This document shows positions 1,460 through 10,802 of a stretch of 37,500 bases of DNA, piece after piece (within the stretch, counting starts at the first letter, position 1; each line of letters opens with the position of its first letter). Source of the stretch: Nitrospirales bacterium (GTDB lineage Bacteria; Nitrospirota; Nitrospiria; Nitrospirales; UBA8639); contig WHTE01000012.1 of the NCBI GenBank assembly GCA_009377845.1, forward strand, positions 1 to 37,500, read 5' to 3'. The notes beneath the pieces were generated by a model. The model made no database searches. It had not been told where the DNA came from and was given only the letters and a program-made list of their open reading frames with translations. A program made the position numbers and the translations under genes.

Positions 1460-2449
1460 ATGCCTAAAATCGTGCGTTTTCATCAAACGGGCGGGCCCGA
1501 AGTCCTGAAACTGGAAGACTTGCCGCTGGCCGAACCTGGAAAGGGGGAAGTTCGGTTCAAAGTAGAGGCCATCGGCCTCAACCGGGCCGAGATCATGTTT
1601 CGGAGTGGGCAATATCTTGAGGTCCCTCAATTTCCCTCGCGGTTAGGCTACGAAGCGGCAGGAGTCATCGACGCCGTGGGTCCCGGCACTACCGGCCTTC
1701 GCATAGGCGACCGCGTCAGTACGATTCCGTCTTTTCCTATCGGCCAATATGGCGTGTATGGAGAGAGTGCGATCGTGCCGGCCCTTGCGGCTGCGCATTT
1801 TCCCGATAATTTTTCTTCCATTGAAGGCGCGGCAATCTGGATGCAGTACATGACGGCTTACGGGGCGCTTATCGAATACGGAAAAGTGAGAAAAAACGAT
1901 TCGGTCTTGATTACGGCGGCCAGCAGCAGTGTGGGGTTAGCGGCTATTCAAATTGTCAAAGCCACCGGAGCGGTAGCTATCGCGACGACCCGTGGAGCTG
2001 ACAAGAAAGCCTTTCTCCTGGAAGCCGGAGCCGATCATGTCATTGTGACGGATGAAGAAGATCTGGTGGAAAGGGGAAAGTCTCTCACCTCCGGAAAAGG
2101 GGTTCGTGTGGTGTTTGATCCCATTGCCGGCCCCTTACTGAAACAACTCGGGGAGGTGACGGCATCATGGGGAATCATCTTTGAATATGGGGCGCTTTCT
2201 TCAAAGCCCACACCGTTTCCTCTCTTTTCCGCCCTGGCGAAAGGATTAACCGTGCGAGGGTACACGCTGTTTGAGATCGTCAGAAGCCCTGAGGCCTTGA
2301 CCCGAGGGAAAGACTATATCTACCAGGGGTTGGAGTCAGGTGCGTTAAAACCGATCATTGATCGGACGTTCAGATTAGAAGAAATAGTCGAGGCACACCG
2401 CTACATGGAATCCAACCAGCAAAAAGGAAAAATCGTGGTGACCGTGTGA
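1460..2449 (+). CDS. Zinc-type alcohol dehydrogenase / NADPH:quinone oxidoreductase family protein (MDR superfamily)
   Basis: 329 aa; 'GPEVLKLEDLPLAEPGKGEVRFKVEAIGLNRAEIMFRSGQY' and 'VLITAASSSVGLAAIQIVKATGAVAIATTRG'. Confidence 0.9.
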   Translation: MPKIVRFHQTGGPEVLKLEDLPLAEPGKGEVRFKVEAIGLNRAEIMFRSGQYLEVPQFPSRLGYEAAGVIDAVGPGTTGLRIGDRVSTIPSFPIGQYGVYGESAIVPALAAAHFPDNFSSIEGAAIWMQYMTAYGALIEYGKVRKNDSVLITAASSSVGLAAIQIVKATGAVAIATTRGADKKAFLLEAGADHVIVTDEEDLVERGKSLTSGKGVRVVFDPIAGPLLKQLGEVTASWGIIFEYGALSSKPTPFPLFSALAKGLTVRGYTLFEIVRSPEALTRGKDYIYQGLESGALKPIIDRTFRLEEIVEAHRYMESNQQKGKIVVTV

Positions 2450-2556
2450 AGGCATTTCCGTACCGTGTAAACTGTCCGTTGGTGGGTTAGCTCATCATCA
2501 AAGCTACACTGAACGTGTAATATTTCATGGCACACTCCTGAGTTGTCCTTCAGGTT

Positions 2557-2576
2557 CCCCCTTTTGAGAAAGGGGG
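2557..2576. repeat. Perfect palindromic hairpin CCCCCTTT-TGAG-AAAGGGGG, part of a dispersed-repeat-like sequence
   Basis: 8-bp perfect stem with 4-nt loop; flanked by 'taggaggatttg'; a related degenerate half copy lies near 10803-10830. Confidence 0.65.
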
Positions 2577-2672
2577 TAGGAGGATTTGATCATCTTTTGC
2601 CTATTTTTCAAACTCGTCACGGCCCGGTTTTCGGGTTGTAGATGGTGATCACAACGGAAGGTTCTTCAGAAG

Positions 2673-3359
2673 TTACAAAGATGGAAGAATTTTAGGAAGC
2701 TTTTCAGCCCGATGACGTTGCTCGGTCGAACGGAGGCGGATTTTAAAAATGACGCGACGACTCTTCTCACGATTCACCCTGTTAGGGGTTTCGTAAATCA
2801 AGTCCTGTCTTCCGCGACCGGAGGCTGACGTCATTTCCTGGAAGCATTGGTAGGCGGCCGGTTCTTGAGCCTCAATGACTGCCAATCCCTTCACCATCAC
2901 CGCCAGTGATCGTTCCTGGCTCAATTTCAGATTAAAGACATCATCGCCGCGATCATCGGTGTGTCCCTGGATTGCGAGGGAATCGATCTTGTGGCGCAAG
3001 GGTCCACAAAGGGCCGCCGCATAAAACGGCATGGACTCTTCTAAAAACTGATCCGCTTGCGGGGAAAGTGTGCTCCGACCGGACTCGAAGGTGAGCCGGT
3101 TTTCGGGGACGACGATTAAGAGAGTGAGCGGATCACGGGGATCGGGATCAAGTGAAAGCCCTAACCGCCCAAGGTGGTCGCGGAGAGCCGCCTGCACGTC
3201 CTCTTTGTTTTCTTGCAATTGCGATTGTGCTTCGGTGGAGGTCTGGGTGATGAAGGCTGCAAAGAGCAGGATGAAGACCATGGCCAACGAGGTCATGAGA
3301 TCGATGACACCGGTCGTGGTGGGAGAGCTGGAGGTACCGTGATCCGTCCCGGAAATCAT
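2673..3359 (-). CDS. MotB/OmpA-family protein, ZorB-like
   Basis: N-terminal single TM with Asp (GVIDLMTSLAMVFILLFAAFI) and C-terminal OmpA-like peptidoglycan-binding motifs (IQGHTDDRGDDVFNLKLSQERSLAVM...NREKSRRVIFKIRL). Start chosen at 3359 because ATG overlaps the upstream TGA stop; the longer ORF reaches 3464. Confidence 0.75.
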   Translation of the reverse strand: MISGTDHGTSSSPTTTGVIDLMTSLAMVFILLFAAFITQTSTEAQSQLQENKEDVQAALRDHLGRLGLSLDPDPRDPLTLLIVVPENRLTFESGRSTLSPQADQFLEESMPFYAAALCGPLRHKIDSLAIQGHTDDRGDDVFNLKLSQERSLAVMVKGLAVIEAQEPAAYQCFQEMTSASGRGRQDLIYETPNRVNREKSRRVIFKIRLRSTEQRHRAEKLPKILPSL

Positions 3360-4582
3360 CCTGTACGCCGTTGCCTGGAAAGCCACGGCCATCTTGGCCA
3401 CGAGCTGATTCTCTCGAAGAAATTGATAGTGGAAGAAACCCGTGGATAAGCGGAGGTTTTCCACAGGAGGGGGCGGTCATCGAAAAGCGTCTCCATCGGA
3501 ACAGGATTGGTTGGGGCATCCTTCAGCAACCTGGTGAGATCATGAATGGCATCAGTCAATTCATTCAGGGGGCCATGAAGCTCTGCTTTGATGATGCAGG
3601 GGAGCTCTGTCACCGTTCGTCGTGCCTCGGCATGGCCATCCTGCTGCAATTTCGTCAAGGACTGAATAGCCGCAGTCAAATCGGCCGTAGGGCCGGCAAG
3701 ACCGTTCGTCCCCCATCCTCCAACGTGTTCCCGGAGTTCCCCGCCGGACGCCGACCTGTCACCTTGTCGTTCGCCCTGAACTGACGTGAGTTGTTCCAAC
3801 ATCTGTTCCATGGTTTTACGGGGGAACAGTTGATCAATGAGACCAAGGAACCTCTGATGAGCGTTGATGAGCCGTGACACCATGGGTTTTTCAACGAATG
3901 TGAACATATTGGCCACAATGAGCCCGACGATGGACGTCAGGAATTTCCCTGCCAGTCCGTTAATCAATCCCTGAATTCCCACAATCTCACTTCCCTCGGC
4001 ATGAAGTTTCCCGAGGCCGATAAACAAGGCCAGAAAGGTCAGCAGTAACCCGATGCCGGTAACGAGTGAAGGAAATTGACTGTAGAAAGCCAGATTCACG
4101 CGGTTAGCCAGGAGGGCTTCCTGAGTAAACACCTCTGCGGCGCGCCTCGTACTGAATATACGTGGTTCAACAAACCAGGGGACCTGTTCCAGGATCAGCG
4201 TGTTCCGGTATTGTGCCCATGGTCCCCGAAACAGAGGTTCCTGTTGGATCCCCGAATTGAGGGTTTGGATGTCGTCGCAATCAGTACGCATGGCGGAGTT
4301 TGCCTTCCGGCCAGCCTGTGTTGGATATCCCTTCTTGGGATGAGGAGTGAATCGCTCACGATCAATGTTGCCGCGTTCTTCAGCCAGGGTGATTAACATC
4401 GGGCCTACTCGATCGAATGCCCGACGAACCAAAGCGGTCTCTTTTGTCAACTTGAAGATTTGCCACAGGAAAAAGAGCACCATTCCACAGGACCCCAGCC
4501 AACTCAGCATGGGGCTGTGCGGCCCTCCCAGGAAGGCCACGTCACGGCTCAAAAATTCCCATAAACCTGAAGAGGTGTTCAC
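3356..4582 (-). CDS. MotA/TolQ/ExbB proton-channel-like protein, ZorA-like, with long C-terminal tail
   Basis: 408 aa, GTG start; TM segments with 'FPSLVTGIGLLLTFLALFIGLGKL' and 'GLAGKFLTSIVGLIVANMFTFVEKPMVSRL' as in ZorA/MotA-type proteins. Confidence 0.75.
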   Translation of the reverse strand: MNTSSGLWEFLSRDVAFLGGPHSPMLSWLGSCGMVLFFLWQIFKLTKETALVRRAFDRVGPMLITLAEERGNIDRERFTPHPKKGYPTQAGRKANSAMRTDCDDIQTLNSGIQQEPLFRGPWAQYRNTLILEQVPWFVEPRIFSTRRAAEVFTQEALLANRVNLAFYSQFPSLVTGIGLLLTFLALFIGLGKLHAEGSEIVGIQGLINGLAGKFLTSIVGLIVANMFTFVEKPMVSRLINAHQRFLGLIDQLFPRKTMEQMLEQLTSVQGERQGDRSASGGELREHVGGWGTNGLAGPTADLTAAIQSLTKLQQDGHAEARRTVTELPCIIKAELHGPLNELTDAIHDLTRLLKDAPTNPVPMETLFDDRPLLWKTSAYPRVSSTINFFERISSWPRWPWLSRQRRTG

Positions 4583-4977
4583 CTGGTCGTCGGTGTCCTT
4601 ATGCTGCCCTCAGCTTCTCTATGGAAGCCTTCCATTCCCCAAAGATGTATGAAGCCTTCTCAAGTTTTGTGCCGAAAACCATTACGGTGGAAATTCACAA
4701 AAAAGCGGAAAACTGATCAGTGGATGAGAATTTTACGAGGCGTCGATGGGCAAAGAGTTCCATCTCCCTCGGCAAGTTGGTCCTTTGGAATTTTTTGGTC
4801 AAACAGGTTGACACGCGATTTGCGAAACAAAAGCTGACTCAACCGGGCATGAGGGAAAAATGCTCACGAAATGCCGAAGAGAGTCTCTTGTTTGAACCTT
4901 AAGCCAAAAGGATTACAATGCGCCTAAGAGTCCGACCATAGCCTTCTGTATGTGTCAGTCTTTTTTTGAGGAAGAAA

Positions 4978-7900
4978 ATGAGAAACATGAAGGCCGCCAA
5001 GACGAACCCACCGACTATTCTTGTTGTGGATGACGAGACAGATATTAGCCTGGCCCTCGGCGATTTACTGGAAAACGCAGGATATCAGGTGGAAGCCGTT
5101 GAGACCGGAAACGAAGCCCTGCTTCGGGTGTCCCCCACTCACGACTATAGTGCCGTCATTCTGGATTTAGGTCTTCCTGACATTGATGGACTGACGGTCC
5201 TTCAACGTCTGCGTGCACAGGATGAGACTCTTCCCGTGATCATTCTGACCGCGCATGGAGACCAAAGGGAAAAAATTGCCACCCTGCAGCATCACGCGTT
5301 TGCTCACCTGATTAAACCGTACGACCGGCCCGAAGTTGTCGAGATGGTGCATCGGGCGGTGGCGGTCAAAAATCTGACCCTGAAGGCGGCGCAGGCGGAA
5401 CAGGCACTCACCTCGAGTGAGGCTCAGCGTCAGCTTGAACAGGAACGCACACAGATTCTTCTTTCCGAAAGCGAACAGCGGCTTCATCTGGCCTTGAAAG
5501 CCGGCAACATGGGGATTTGGGACTGGCATATTCCAACCAATCACATCATCTGGTCCGAAGAAGTTGCCGGGCTCTTTGGTTTGGCTCAGGGGACCTTTGA
5601 TGGGACATACAAAGCATATGCAAACTCTATCCATCCCGAGGACCGGGCAATGCTGGAGGAAACCATTCGGAAATCGCTGGAAAACGAGGCGCCATATGAA
5701 GTCGAGCATCGAATCGTGTGGCCCACCGGAGAGGTCCGCTGGTTAGCCTGCAAGGGGCAGGTGATCAAAGATCAGGAAGGTCGCCCGCAACGAATGCTTG
5801 GTACCGTTCAGGATATCAGCACCCGAAAACGGGCAGAGATCAAACTGCGGGATAGTCAAATGTTTTTAACCTCCATTGTGGAAAACATTCCGCATATGAT
5901 TTTCGTCAAAGATGCCAAGGATCTCCGCTTTTTTCTCTTGAATAAGGCCGGCGAGGAACTCCTGGGGTATTCACGCACTACCTTGATCGGGAAAACCGAT
6001 TATGGCTTTTTTCCCAAATCGGAAGCGGACTTCTTTACCGGCAAGGATCGAGAAGTTCTGTCAGGCAAACAACTGCTGGATATCCCGGAGGAAGTGATTC
6101 ACACCACCACTCGAGGGACGAGATACCTCCATACCAAAAAAATCCCGCTCTTGGATGCCCACGGCGATCCGCTCTACCTCTTGGGGATCTCCGAAGACAT
6201 TACGGACCGGAAGCAAGCAGACTTGGAACAGGACGAACGGGAATTACTCTTGCGGCTGATGTTTGAGACTGGGGCCGGTTGCGTCAAACGGGTCGCCGCC
6301 GATGGGACGCTCTTGCACATGAACCCCGCCGGGCTGGAGTTCATTGAAGCGGACCAGGCAACAGAGGCACTAGGGCGTTCCGTGTTTGATCTGGTGACAC
6401 CGGAGCATCGAGCCGCGTTCCAACGGATGCATCAGGAGGTGATTCAGGGCAAGAACCAGACCCTTCAATTTCAAGTCCAGGGTTTCAAAGGGTCCCGGCG
6501 GTGGCTGGAGACGTATGCGGTACCGTTTCGGAATCCCCTGACGAAGGAAGTGGAACATTTGGCCATCTCTCACGATATCACGGAACGCAAGGCGTCAGAG
6601 GACCTTATTCGGAAAGGCGAGAGAAAATTTCGAGCCATATATGAACAGGCACCAGCTGGCATCGCCATCCTGGACTCACTCAGCGGGCGATTCACTCAAG
6701 TCAATAAGAAATATTGCGATATGGTCGGGTACTCCCAGGAGGAAATGCTCGATCGGACCTTTCAGGACATTACTCATCCGGATGACCTTCAACCTGATTT
6801 GAATCAGATGCAGGAACTTCTGGCTGGCCAAATCAGCAGCTTTCAAATGGAAAAACGATACATTCGAAAAAACGGTGAAATCATTTGGGTGCATCTGACT
6901 TGTGTCCCGTTATGGTTGGAAACCACAGATCCTCGTTTACATATTGCGATGGTTGAGGATATTACCCATCGGAAGCAGGGGGAAAAAACCATCCGGGAAA
7001 GCGAAGAATGGTTCCGAATGCTGACTGAAGCGATTCCGCAGCAGGTATGGACGGCACAACCTGACGGGTTACTTGATTATGTCAACCAACGTGTCCTCGA
7101 GTACTTTGCACGTCCCTTCGAGGACATCATTGGTCATGGATGGCAGGAACTCTTGCACCCTGATGATTTGCCGGTATGCCTGACTCGCTGGGCGGAAGCT
7201 CTGGAAACCAAGAAGCCTTATGAAATTGAATTTCGATTGCGTCGAGGAAGGGATCAAGCCTATCGCTGGCATTTAGGGCGAGCTTTGCCCATTTTTAATC
7301 AAGAGGGGCAGGTGGTGAAATGGTTTGGGACCAATACCGATATCACCCAATTGAAAGAGTTGGAAAATCAGGTTCGACAATCTCAAAAAATGGAGGCGAT
7401 TGGGACCTTAGCCGGTGGTATCGCGCATGATTTCAATAATATTCTGATGGGGATCGTGGGGTATACCGAACTGGCTAAGCAGAAGGCTGGTGGGAATGAA
7501 TTGGTCAAACGAAACCTGGATGAGGTGTTAGTTGCGGGGCAGCGTGCCAAGGAACTGGTCCAGCAAATTTTGGCGTTTAGTCGGCAAACCGAGCAGGAAC
7601 GTCAGCCGCTTGAACTCCAATTGGTGGTCAAAGAAGTTTGCAAATTCCTCCGCGCGACGTTACCGGCGACCATCGAAATTCGTCAAAATTTCACAGAGGC
7701 CCCCACGATCATTTTAGGAGATCCTATCCAAATGCACCAAGTGGTGATGAACCTCTGTGCTAATGCCGAACATGCCATGCGGGAAAGCGGAGGTCTTCTT
7801 GAATTGAAGGTGGATCATGTGGGGGCTGAACCTGATGGGATAGGGGCACATCCTGATCTGAAGGGAGGTTCCTATGTACACCTGACGGTTCGGGATACTG

Positions 7901-8511
7901 GAGCGGGCATGACTCCAGAGGTGGCCCAACGCATCTTTGATCCATTTTTTACCACCAAGGGGGTCGGTGAAGGGACGGGAATGGGCTTAGCCGTTGTCCA
8001 TGGAATCGTCATCAGCCATGGCGGTGTCATTCACGTGGAGAGTGAACTGGGCCAGGGAACAACCTTTAGCATTTACTTCCCGGAGATGGAGGCAAGGAGT
8101 ATCCTGGAGGAAGATAAACCATTGCAACAAGAAATTTTCATGGGCCGGGGGCGTATACTTTTTGTGGAGGATGAAAAGCCCCTCGCAAGGCTGGGAGAGG
8201 AGGCAATGAGAGAGTTGGGGTATGAGGTCATGGTGCGCACGAGCAGTGTTGAAGCACTGGAAGCCTTTCGGGCTGATCCCTTTCGTTTTGATGCGGTCGT
8301 GACTGATCAAACGATGCCGAATATCACTGGTGAAGCGCTTGCCCGTGAATTGTTACAGCTCCGACCCGACGTGCCCATTATTCTATGTACGGGTTTTAGC
8401 CATGAGATTTCTGCTGAACAGGCCAAAGCCATGGGGATTCGAGCTTTTCTTTTAAAGCCTCTGCTGATCAAGGACTTAGGGCGGGCTCTTCGGGAGGTCC
8501 TTCATTCATGA
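4978..8511 (+). CDS. Hybrid sensor histidine kinase: N-terminal REC, multiple PAS, HisKA, HATPase, C-terminal REC
   Basis: 'ILVVDDETDISLALGDLLE...VILDLGLPDIDGL' (REC); repeated 'EDITxRKQ' PAS/PAC ends; 'LAGGIAHDFNNIL' H-box; 'GEGTGMGLAVVHGIV' G-box; second REC 'ILFVEDEKPLARLG...VVTDQTMPNITG'. ATG at 4978 preceded by GAGGAAG; the ORF track opens at a TTG at 4966. Confidence 0.95.
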   Translation: MRNMKAAKTNPPTILVVDDETDISLALGDLLENAGYQVEAVETGNEALLRVSPTHDYSAVILDLGLPDIDGLTVLQRLRAQDETLPVIILTAHGDQREKIATLQHHAFAHLIKPYDRPEVVEMVHRAVAVKNLTLKAAQAEQALTSSEAQRQLEQERTQILLSESEQRLHLALKAGNMGIWDWHIPTNHIIWSEEVAGLFGLAQGTFDGTYKAYANSIHPEDRAMLEETIRKSLENEAPYEVEHRIVWPTGEVRWLACKGQVIKDQEGRPQRMLGTVQDISTRKRAEIKLRDSQMFLTSIVENIPHMIFVKDAKDLRFFLLNKAGEELLGYSRTTLIGKTDYGFFPKSEADFFTGKDREVLSGKQLLDIPEEVIHTTTRGTRYLHTKKIPLLDAHGDPLYLLGISEDITDRKQADLEQDERELLLRLMFETGAGCVKRVAADGTLLHMNPAGLEFIEADQATEALGRSVFDLVTPEHRAAFQRMHQEVIQGKNQTLQFQVQGFKGSRRWLETYAVPFRNPLTKEVEHLAISHDITERKASEDLIRKGERKFRAIYEQAPAGIAILDSLSGRFTQVNKKYCDMVGYSQEEMLDRTFQDITHPDDLQPDLNQMQELLAGQISSFQMEKRYIRKNGEIIWVHLTCVPLWLETTDPRLHIAMVEDITHRKQGEKTIRESEEWFRMLTEAIPQQVWTAQPDGLLDYVNQRVLEYFARPFEDIIGHGWQELLHPDDLPVCLTRWAEALETKKPYEIEFRLRRGRDQAYRWHLGRALPIFNQEGQVVKWFGTNTDITQLKELENQVRQSQKMEAIGTLAGGIAHDFNNILMGIVGYTELAKQKAGGNELVKRNLDEVLVAGQRAKELVQQILAFSRQTEQERQPLELQLVVKEVCKFLRATLPATIEIRQNFTEAPTIILGDPIQMHQVVMNLCANAEHAMRESGGLLELKVDHVGAEPDGIGAHPDLKGGSYVHLTVRDTGAGMTPEVAQRIFDPFFTTKGVGEGTGMGLAVVHGIVISHGGVIHVESELGQGTTFSIYFPEMEARSILEEDKPLQQEIFMGRGRILFVEDEKPLARLGEEAMRELGYEVMVRTSSVEALEAFRADPFRFDAVVTDQTMPNITGEALARELLQLRPDVPIILCTGFSHEISAEQAKAMGIRAFLLKPLLIKDLGRALREVLHS

Positions 8512-10301: not shown

Positions 10302-10649
10302 TTAACCGACATGGACTGGACCGTGGTCGTCGCAATGGGTCCCATGCGGAAAATGCAAATGGCCTTCAACCACATAGTCTATATGATCTCCGTGAGGGAT
10401 GGGTTCATGCCCGCAAGAGAGGTTGTGAAGATGTTTGGAATCATGAGAATCACACGAGTGGTCAGGAGTGCAGTCAGCCGGGTTCGCTTTGCTGACGGTG
10501 AGGGTGTGTTCATCCACATGTCCATTGTGGATGTTGTGAAGATGCCCATCGTGAAGATAATCCTGATGCCCATCGTGCCTGACAAGGGTGTGACCACAAC
10601 CGGGGCTGTGCACATGGGGATGTTCGTCATGAATACGGTGTTCGTTCAT
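10302..10649 (-). CDS. Histidine-rich metal-binding protein with internal duplication
   Basis: 115 aa from MNEHRIHDEH with 27 His; two copies of a module CGH-x(n)-H-x2-H-x-DY-x3-GHLH-x2-H-x2-H-x-D; preceded by 'AGAAAGGACACGCC' RBS region. Confidence 0.8.
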   Translation of the reverse strand: MNEHRIHDEHPHVHSPGCGHTLVRHDGHQDYLHDGHLHNIHNGHVDEHTLTVSKANPADCTPDHSCDSHDSKHLHNLSCGHEPIPHGDHIDYVVEGHLHFPHGTHCDDHGPVHVG

Positions 10650-10802
10650 GGCGTGTCCTTTCTTGATGATGGTTGTTTCCTTCACGTGCTATGAATTGTA
10701 TTTCAGTCTAGAAAATTACTCGAAATTGAGTCAAGCGATTATATATGAGCAACCTCTTCCGATTCAGAAAGCTCTACACAAAAAGACAGATTTGCGGGCG
10801 CA

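Follow-up and report, generated by a model that had tools for sequence, protein, structure and literature searches.

A ZorA/ZorB-type gene pair without adjoining Zorya effectors in the Nitrospirales

The window analysed here is a 37,500-nucleotide stretch of DNA (positions 1 to 37,500 of contig WHTE01000012.1) from a Nitrospirales bacterium known from a 3.2-Mb metagenome-assembled genome (GCA_009377845.1). It carries a pair of genes whose products belong to the ZorA and ZorB protein families, as judged by profile, solved-structure and fold comparison. No gene for ZorC, ZorD or ZorE follows the pair, as the first-pass annotation of the sequence had remarked, and the same is true of all 35 solo loci, from eight genera, that were compared. 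Types I, II and III of Zorya are defined by their effectors, and on that definition the pair belongs to none of them. The best reading of these data is a two-gene ZorAB-type motor or sensor anchored to peptidoglycan, with a cytoplasmic partner that is unlinked, if there is one.

Using PADLOC models, the ZorB-like protein was matched over nearly its full length (expect value, E, of 3e-38) and the ZorA-like protein over core residues 103-266 only (7e-22); the ZorA models also matched all 34 aligned ZorA sequences. When a profile of Nitrospirales ZorA was searched against the PDB, the ZorA chains of 8VVN and 8QYD, their relatives and 8VVI led the results (1e-15 to 1e-6), and no MotA, TolQ or ExbB chain was returned at E up to 1. 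The equivalent ZorB profile found ZorB of 8VVI, 8QYD and 8VVN first, with OmpA/MotB-type domains lower. Foldseek searches gave ZorA entries at 1e-8 to 2e-5 for the ZorA-like model, compared to ~1e-2 or worse for ExbB/TolQ, and ranked ZorB entries first for the ZorB-like model. The three approaches agree on the ZorA-ZorB architecture that had been suggested from the sequence, and the comparison with other stator families likewise gives ZorA/ZorB, and not MotAB or TolQR, as the best matches. The curated NCBIfam cut-offs are not reached, so the pair is best described as a divergent ZorA/ZorB subfamily; the best NCBIfam match of the ZorA-like protein, NF033915 ('anti-phage ZorAB system protein ZorA', a 383-position model), scored 58 bits, well short of the 100 bits that its cut-off requires.

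The residues expected of a working stator are retained. The ZorB-like protein has an N-terminal transmembrane helix carrying a membrane Asp, Asp20, in the motif DLMTSLA, and an OmpA-type domain (PF00691, E 5e-7), both of which had been picked out at first pass. Asp20 is invariant in 35/35 sequences, as are the OmpA-domain residues T134, D135, G138, N143, S147 and R150, and sequence features of this kind suggest that the domain binds peptidoglycan. In the ZorA-like protein, T182 and S217 of the Thr/Ser ring are also invariant across the solo loci (35/35), and overall identity within the genus is 59-80%. This protein has three hydrophobic segments, and its membrane helices fall inside helices 25-78, 164-196 and 199-252 of the AlphaFold model. 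The same model places two helices (101-112 and 116-126) and a beta pair (129-132/141-144) in the cytoplasm, in a block with a predicted local distance difference test score (pLDDT) of ~72-89. PMC12505986 describes a cytoplasmic domain of two helices and a beta-sheet as a distinctive trait of Zorya-type proteins, and the predicted domain has this arrangement.

The C-terminal tail of the ZorA-like protein was also foreseen, although its length was put at about 170 aa; we count 154 aa after the LFP motif, with one long predicted helix at 298-355. A tail is present in all homologues, measuring 129-206 aa (median 155) in the 35 solo ZorA. Within the same phylum, however, five ZorA of type I-like systems have 381-476 aa after LFP, and the type II ZorA has 255 aa. 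As a ZorA hallmark the tail is thus present, but short for type I Zorya, at about a third of the length. The long-tailed proteins belong to complete systems: ZorA, ZorB, ZorC and ZorD occur in that order in three Nitrospirota loci (L152, assigned by homology, L153 and L156). One of these, L156 (G160:C1:4556700-4576600), is a complete type I Zorya from the same order as the window's genome, and a further locus, L157, reads ZorA2-ZorB-ZorE. A scan of viral contigs yielded a single apparently complete Zorya and nothing else: homologues of ZorA, ZorB, ZorC and ZorD on an IMG/VR contig with a viral classification (L190, IMGVR_UViG_3300042516_006151), which suggests either a Zorya borne on a mobile element or a misclassified contig.

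Searches for effectors were extended beyond the window. With tblastn, ZorC, ZorD and ZorE of the phylum found nothing in the 35 solo loci, and the same ZorC and ZorD queries do find other complete type I systems. Across the genus, all that ZorD queries returned were segments of generic SNF2 helicases, scoring far under the cut-off and present also in a genome that has no zorAB (G013); ZorE gave only two marginal 74-residue matches and none in the window's genome. A search for DUF2894/ZorG that was positive in one control genome found it in none of the 21 genomes; ZorF (DUF3348) was not searched.

Nor is there a constant neighbour that could take the effector's place. In the 35 loci zorA and zorB always occur together and in the same order (in four of them the zorB reading frame was masked by an antisense frame, and these were included after recovery), and no other gene is constant; flanks differ genus by genus. 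A third operon gene was considered and rejected, as same-strand neighbours vary by genus and apparent closeness often stems from over-long start choices. In the tested flanks we found no Tol, TonB or flagellar neighbours and no defence genes adjoining the pair. The only PADLOC matches in the tested flanks of the window are to the hybrid kinase that diverges from zorA (Table 1), and these overlap its receiver domains.

This PAS-rich kinase was considered as a partner. It flanks zorAB in five of the six genus loci examined, but its orthologue is unlinked in G020, was found in neither of the two tested g9 genomes, and is present in G003 with no zorAB within the adjoining 3.6 kb. The kinases near two g31 loci are non-orthologous, aligning for part of their length at ~33-50% local identity. 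Taken together, these observations make the kinase at most a genus-level regulator.

The pair is widespread in the order. It was found in 18 of the 21 genomes of the window's genus, and ZorB matches at E up to 1e-3 occur in 157/236 genomes of the order, or ~149 after eight weak ones are dropped, a count made from the match listing that takes in G160, with its complete Zorya, and the degraded G099. Almost all positive genomes have a single copy. Outside the order, in a 396-genome sample of the phylum, only five genomes gave a profile match at 1e-12. The suggestion of an orphan or stand-alone motor, made for the window alone, extends to most of the order. We found no earlier description of an effector-less Nitrospirales ZorAB in a partial coverage of the literature, and PMC12505986 left ZorAB out of its phylogeny.

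Selection and phylogeny were then compared. Eight clean close pairs gave Nei-Gojobori ratios of nonsynonymous to synonymous substitution (dN/dS) of ~0.05-0.14 in the ZorA core, 0.06-0.21 in ZorB and 0.09-0.56 in the tail; in pairs with L107 the core value is inflated through N-terminal over-extension. These low ratios indicate that ZorA and ZorB are both maintained by purifying selection, which is strong on the ZorA core, with less constraint on the tail. A tree of the ZorA core plus ZorB shares 14/24 splits with an rpoB tree and recovers most rpoB groups. Topology agreement was used in place of the correlation of pairwise distances, which is weak (Pearson 0.15), a result attributed to discordant clades and uneven rates. 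Among the discordant groups, g31, from the other main family, joins the window's family, which suggests transfer between families; G020, a deep member, joins g9, and g29 splits. The g31 loci with discordant ZorAB are L103-L106, L123 and L124. Overall, we conclude that the pair is long-kept and usually vertical, yet dispensable. Near-core presence, mostly vertical descent and single copy number resemble a domesticated chromosomal function more than they do a typical mobile defence system.

We consider it probable, though far from certain, that the pair is a stand-alone chromosomal envelope sensor or motor with an unlinked, shared or non-Zorya partner, rather than a canonical effector-bearing Zorya. 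Such a machine would be built as a ZorA5-ZorB2 assembly in the inner membrane, with the 5:2 ratio presumed. The OmpA domain of ZorB would grip peptidoglycan, and its engagement, for example on envelope deformation, would open the channel. Ions could then pass via Asp20 of ZorB and the Thr/Ser ring of ZorA, and ZorA, with its short tail bundled, may rotate or change shape against the anchored ZorB, so relaying an envelope signal to the cytoplasm. The output of the pair in these nitrite-oxidiser-related bacteria may not be phage defence. More tentatively, Nitrospirales ZorAB could add another class to the chromosomal rotary stators Mot, Tol, Exb, Gld and Agl, one long kept across the order whose output would be either unrelated to defence or directed through a new effector.

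Several points weigh against this stand-alone sensor or motor. The genus-wide search for ZorC found none, but no control genome of that search was positive either; even so, ZorC and ZorD proteins of the phylum were found adjoining long-tailed ZorA. Effectors unlike known Zorya genes could be encoded elsewhere in the genome. The AlphaFold models are monomeric and of moderate confidence (mean pLDDT 64-65). Finally, the pair can be lost: in G013 both zorAB and the kinase are absent from a retained PNPOx-DUF5069-oxidoreductase block, and in G139 (L158) and G099 (L159) zorB is partial or stop-riddled in otherwise conserved synteny. The broken zorB genes are recent losses of the pair, and together with the absences in G013 and G003 they show it to be dispensable, like defence genes.

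The main alternative is a split or minimal anti-phage system, in which ZorAB senses envelope damage by phage and either recruits or activates an unlinked, non-homologous effector or halts infected cells through its own ion leak. ZorAB is the sensor and motor half of Zorya, and the effectors are modular (CD, E or FG; PMC11890865, PMC8565338); patchy presence, decayed copies and the one apparent transfer between families also fit an accessory defence gene. However, the ZorA tail is needed for defence and ZorAB alone is insufficient (PMC11890865, PMC8565338), and the solo tail is the short form described above. The pair is also single copy and near-core, with tested flanks free of defence genes. 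On balance we regard an anti-phage role of this kind as rather unlikely.

A housekeeping MotAB, TolQR or ExbBD system, which the first-pass annotation had kept as an option in its ExbB/TolQ-like form, is very improbable. The pair shares their superfamily, and Pfam PF01618 (MotA_ExbB) does match the ZorA-like protein, if weakly (15.8 bits, below cut-off), but the ZorA/ZorB profiles and folds fit far better and there are no Tol, TonB or flagellar neighbours. Moreover, separate MotA/TolQ/ExbB-type proteins are found in every genome tested: at least three further MotA_ExbB proteins per genome occur in 13 genomes, including G013 and others that lack zorAB, so the pair is no replacement for Tol, Exb or Mot. 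Profile, fold, operon partners and these separate proteins together led us to reject a MotAB, TolQR or ExbBD identity. Recent loss of the effectors from a complete Zorya, leaving a remnant in decay, could explain the degraded copies in G099 and G139 and the faster evolution of the tail relative to the core. This reading is largely refuted, and hardly credible: across many genera the frames are intact, the functional residues invariant and dN/dS low, and the same two-gene form in all 35 loci points to an old state.

The layout of the pair and its surroundings is given in Table 1. The two minus-strand frames and their ATGA overlap are present as first described, an arrangement from which translational coupling may be presumed. 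The same four-base overlap is common in homologous loci, and gaps of up to 41 bases are seen elsewhere. An alternative GTG start at 3464 would give a zorB product of 263 aa. In the divergent intergenic region, sigma-70-like promoter matches were not above shuffled expectation. The convergent quinone oxidoreductase noted at first pass is confirmed. Other flanking genes are unremarkable and encode 6-pyruvoyl tetrahydropterin synthase-like, FGE-sulfatase-domain and KsgA-type rRNA dimethylase proteins, an EamA transporter, a histidine phosphatase and a GGDEF response regulator. Separately, a 127-aa histidine-rich protein is encoded at 10302-10685 on the minus strand; it has repeated CGHxxxxHxDHxDYxxxGHLH-like motifs and no Pfam match, and from its sequence looks like a small metal-binding protein. 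A frame on the opposite strand overlaps it.

Table 1 Features of the zorAB-like locus and its borders in the window.
Feature	Position	Strand	Description
zorA-like gene	3356..4582	-	408 aa from a GTG start; channel subunit of MotA/TolQ/ExbB type, carrying a cytoplasmic domain of Zorya type
zorB-like gene	2673..3359	-	228 aa, ATG start at 3359; N-terminal transmembrane helix and periplasmic OmpA-type domain
zorA stop/zorB start overlap	3356..3359	-	ATGA, read from sequence
Intergenic region 3' of zorB, convergent	2450..2672	.	No third operon gene
Divergent intergenic region, zorA and PAS-rich hybrid histidine kinase	4583..4965	.	Presumed promoter region
Quinone oxidoreductase-like gene, convergent with zorB	1460-2449	+	Pfam ADH_N/ADH_zinc_N
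PAS-rich hybrid histidine kinase, divergent from zorA	4966-8511	+	Receivers at both ends

The pair raises the question of whether a Zorya motor can function without its nucleases. If it acts alone, it would offer a clean system for the effects of ZorAB rotation or ion flow, with sensor separated from effector. It would also bear on whether Zorya arose when an older envelope motor gained effectors or, conversely, the motor came out of Zorya by domestication, a direction that the present tree does not decide.

Compared with known systems, the Nitrospirales pair is closest to type I Zorya (ZorABCD; 8QYD, 8VVN), with which it shares the channel core, the Zorya-type cytoplasmic domain, the transmembrane Asp and OmpA domain of ZorB, the order A then B, and its best profile and fold matches; it differs in having no ZorC or ZorD in cis, with none detected in trans, and in its much shorter tail. 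Type II (ZorABE; 8VVI) has in common with it a shorter ZorA and a ZorB profile match to 8VVI of 2.8e-13, but the window's ZorA-like protein scores lower on ZorA2 models and the solo pairs lack ZorE. The N-terminal transmembrane region and large cytoplasmic domain of solo ZorA are also type I-like, unlike type II. NF033915 describes a similarly short ZorA; the window's ZorA-like protein is of a related subfamily and, by the cut-off, not a member. The MotAB, TolQR, ExbBD and AglRS stators share the superfamily and, presumably, an A5B2 ion-driven motor, but they are distant in fold (Foldseek 1e-2 or worse) and, according to PMC12505986, are without the Zorya-type domain.
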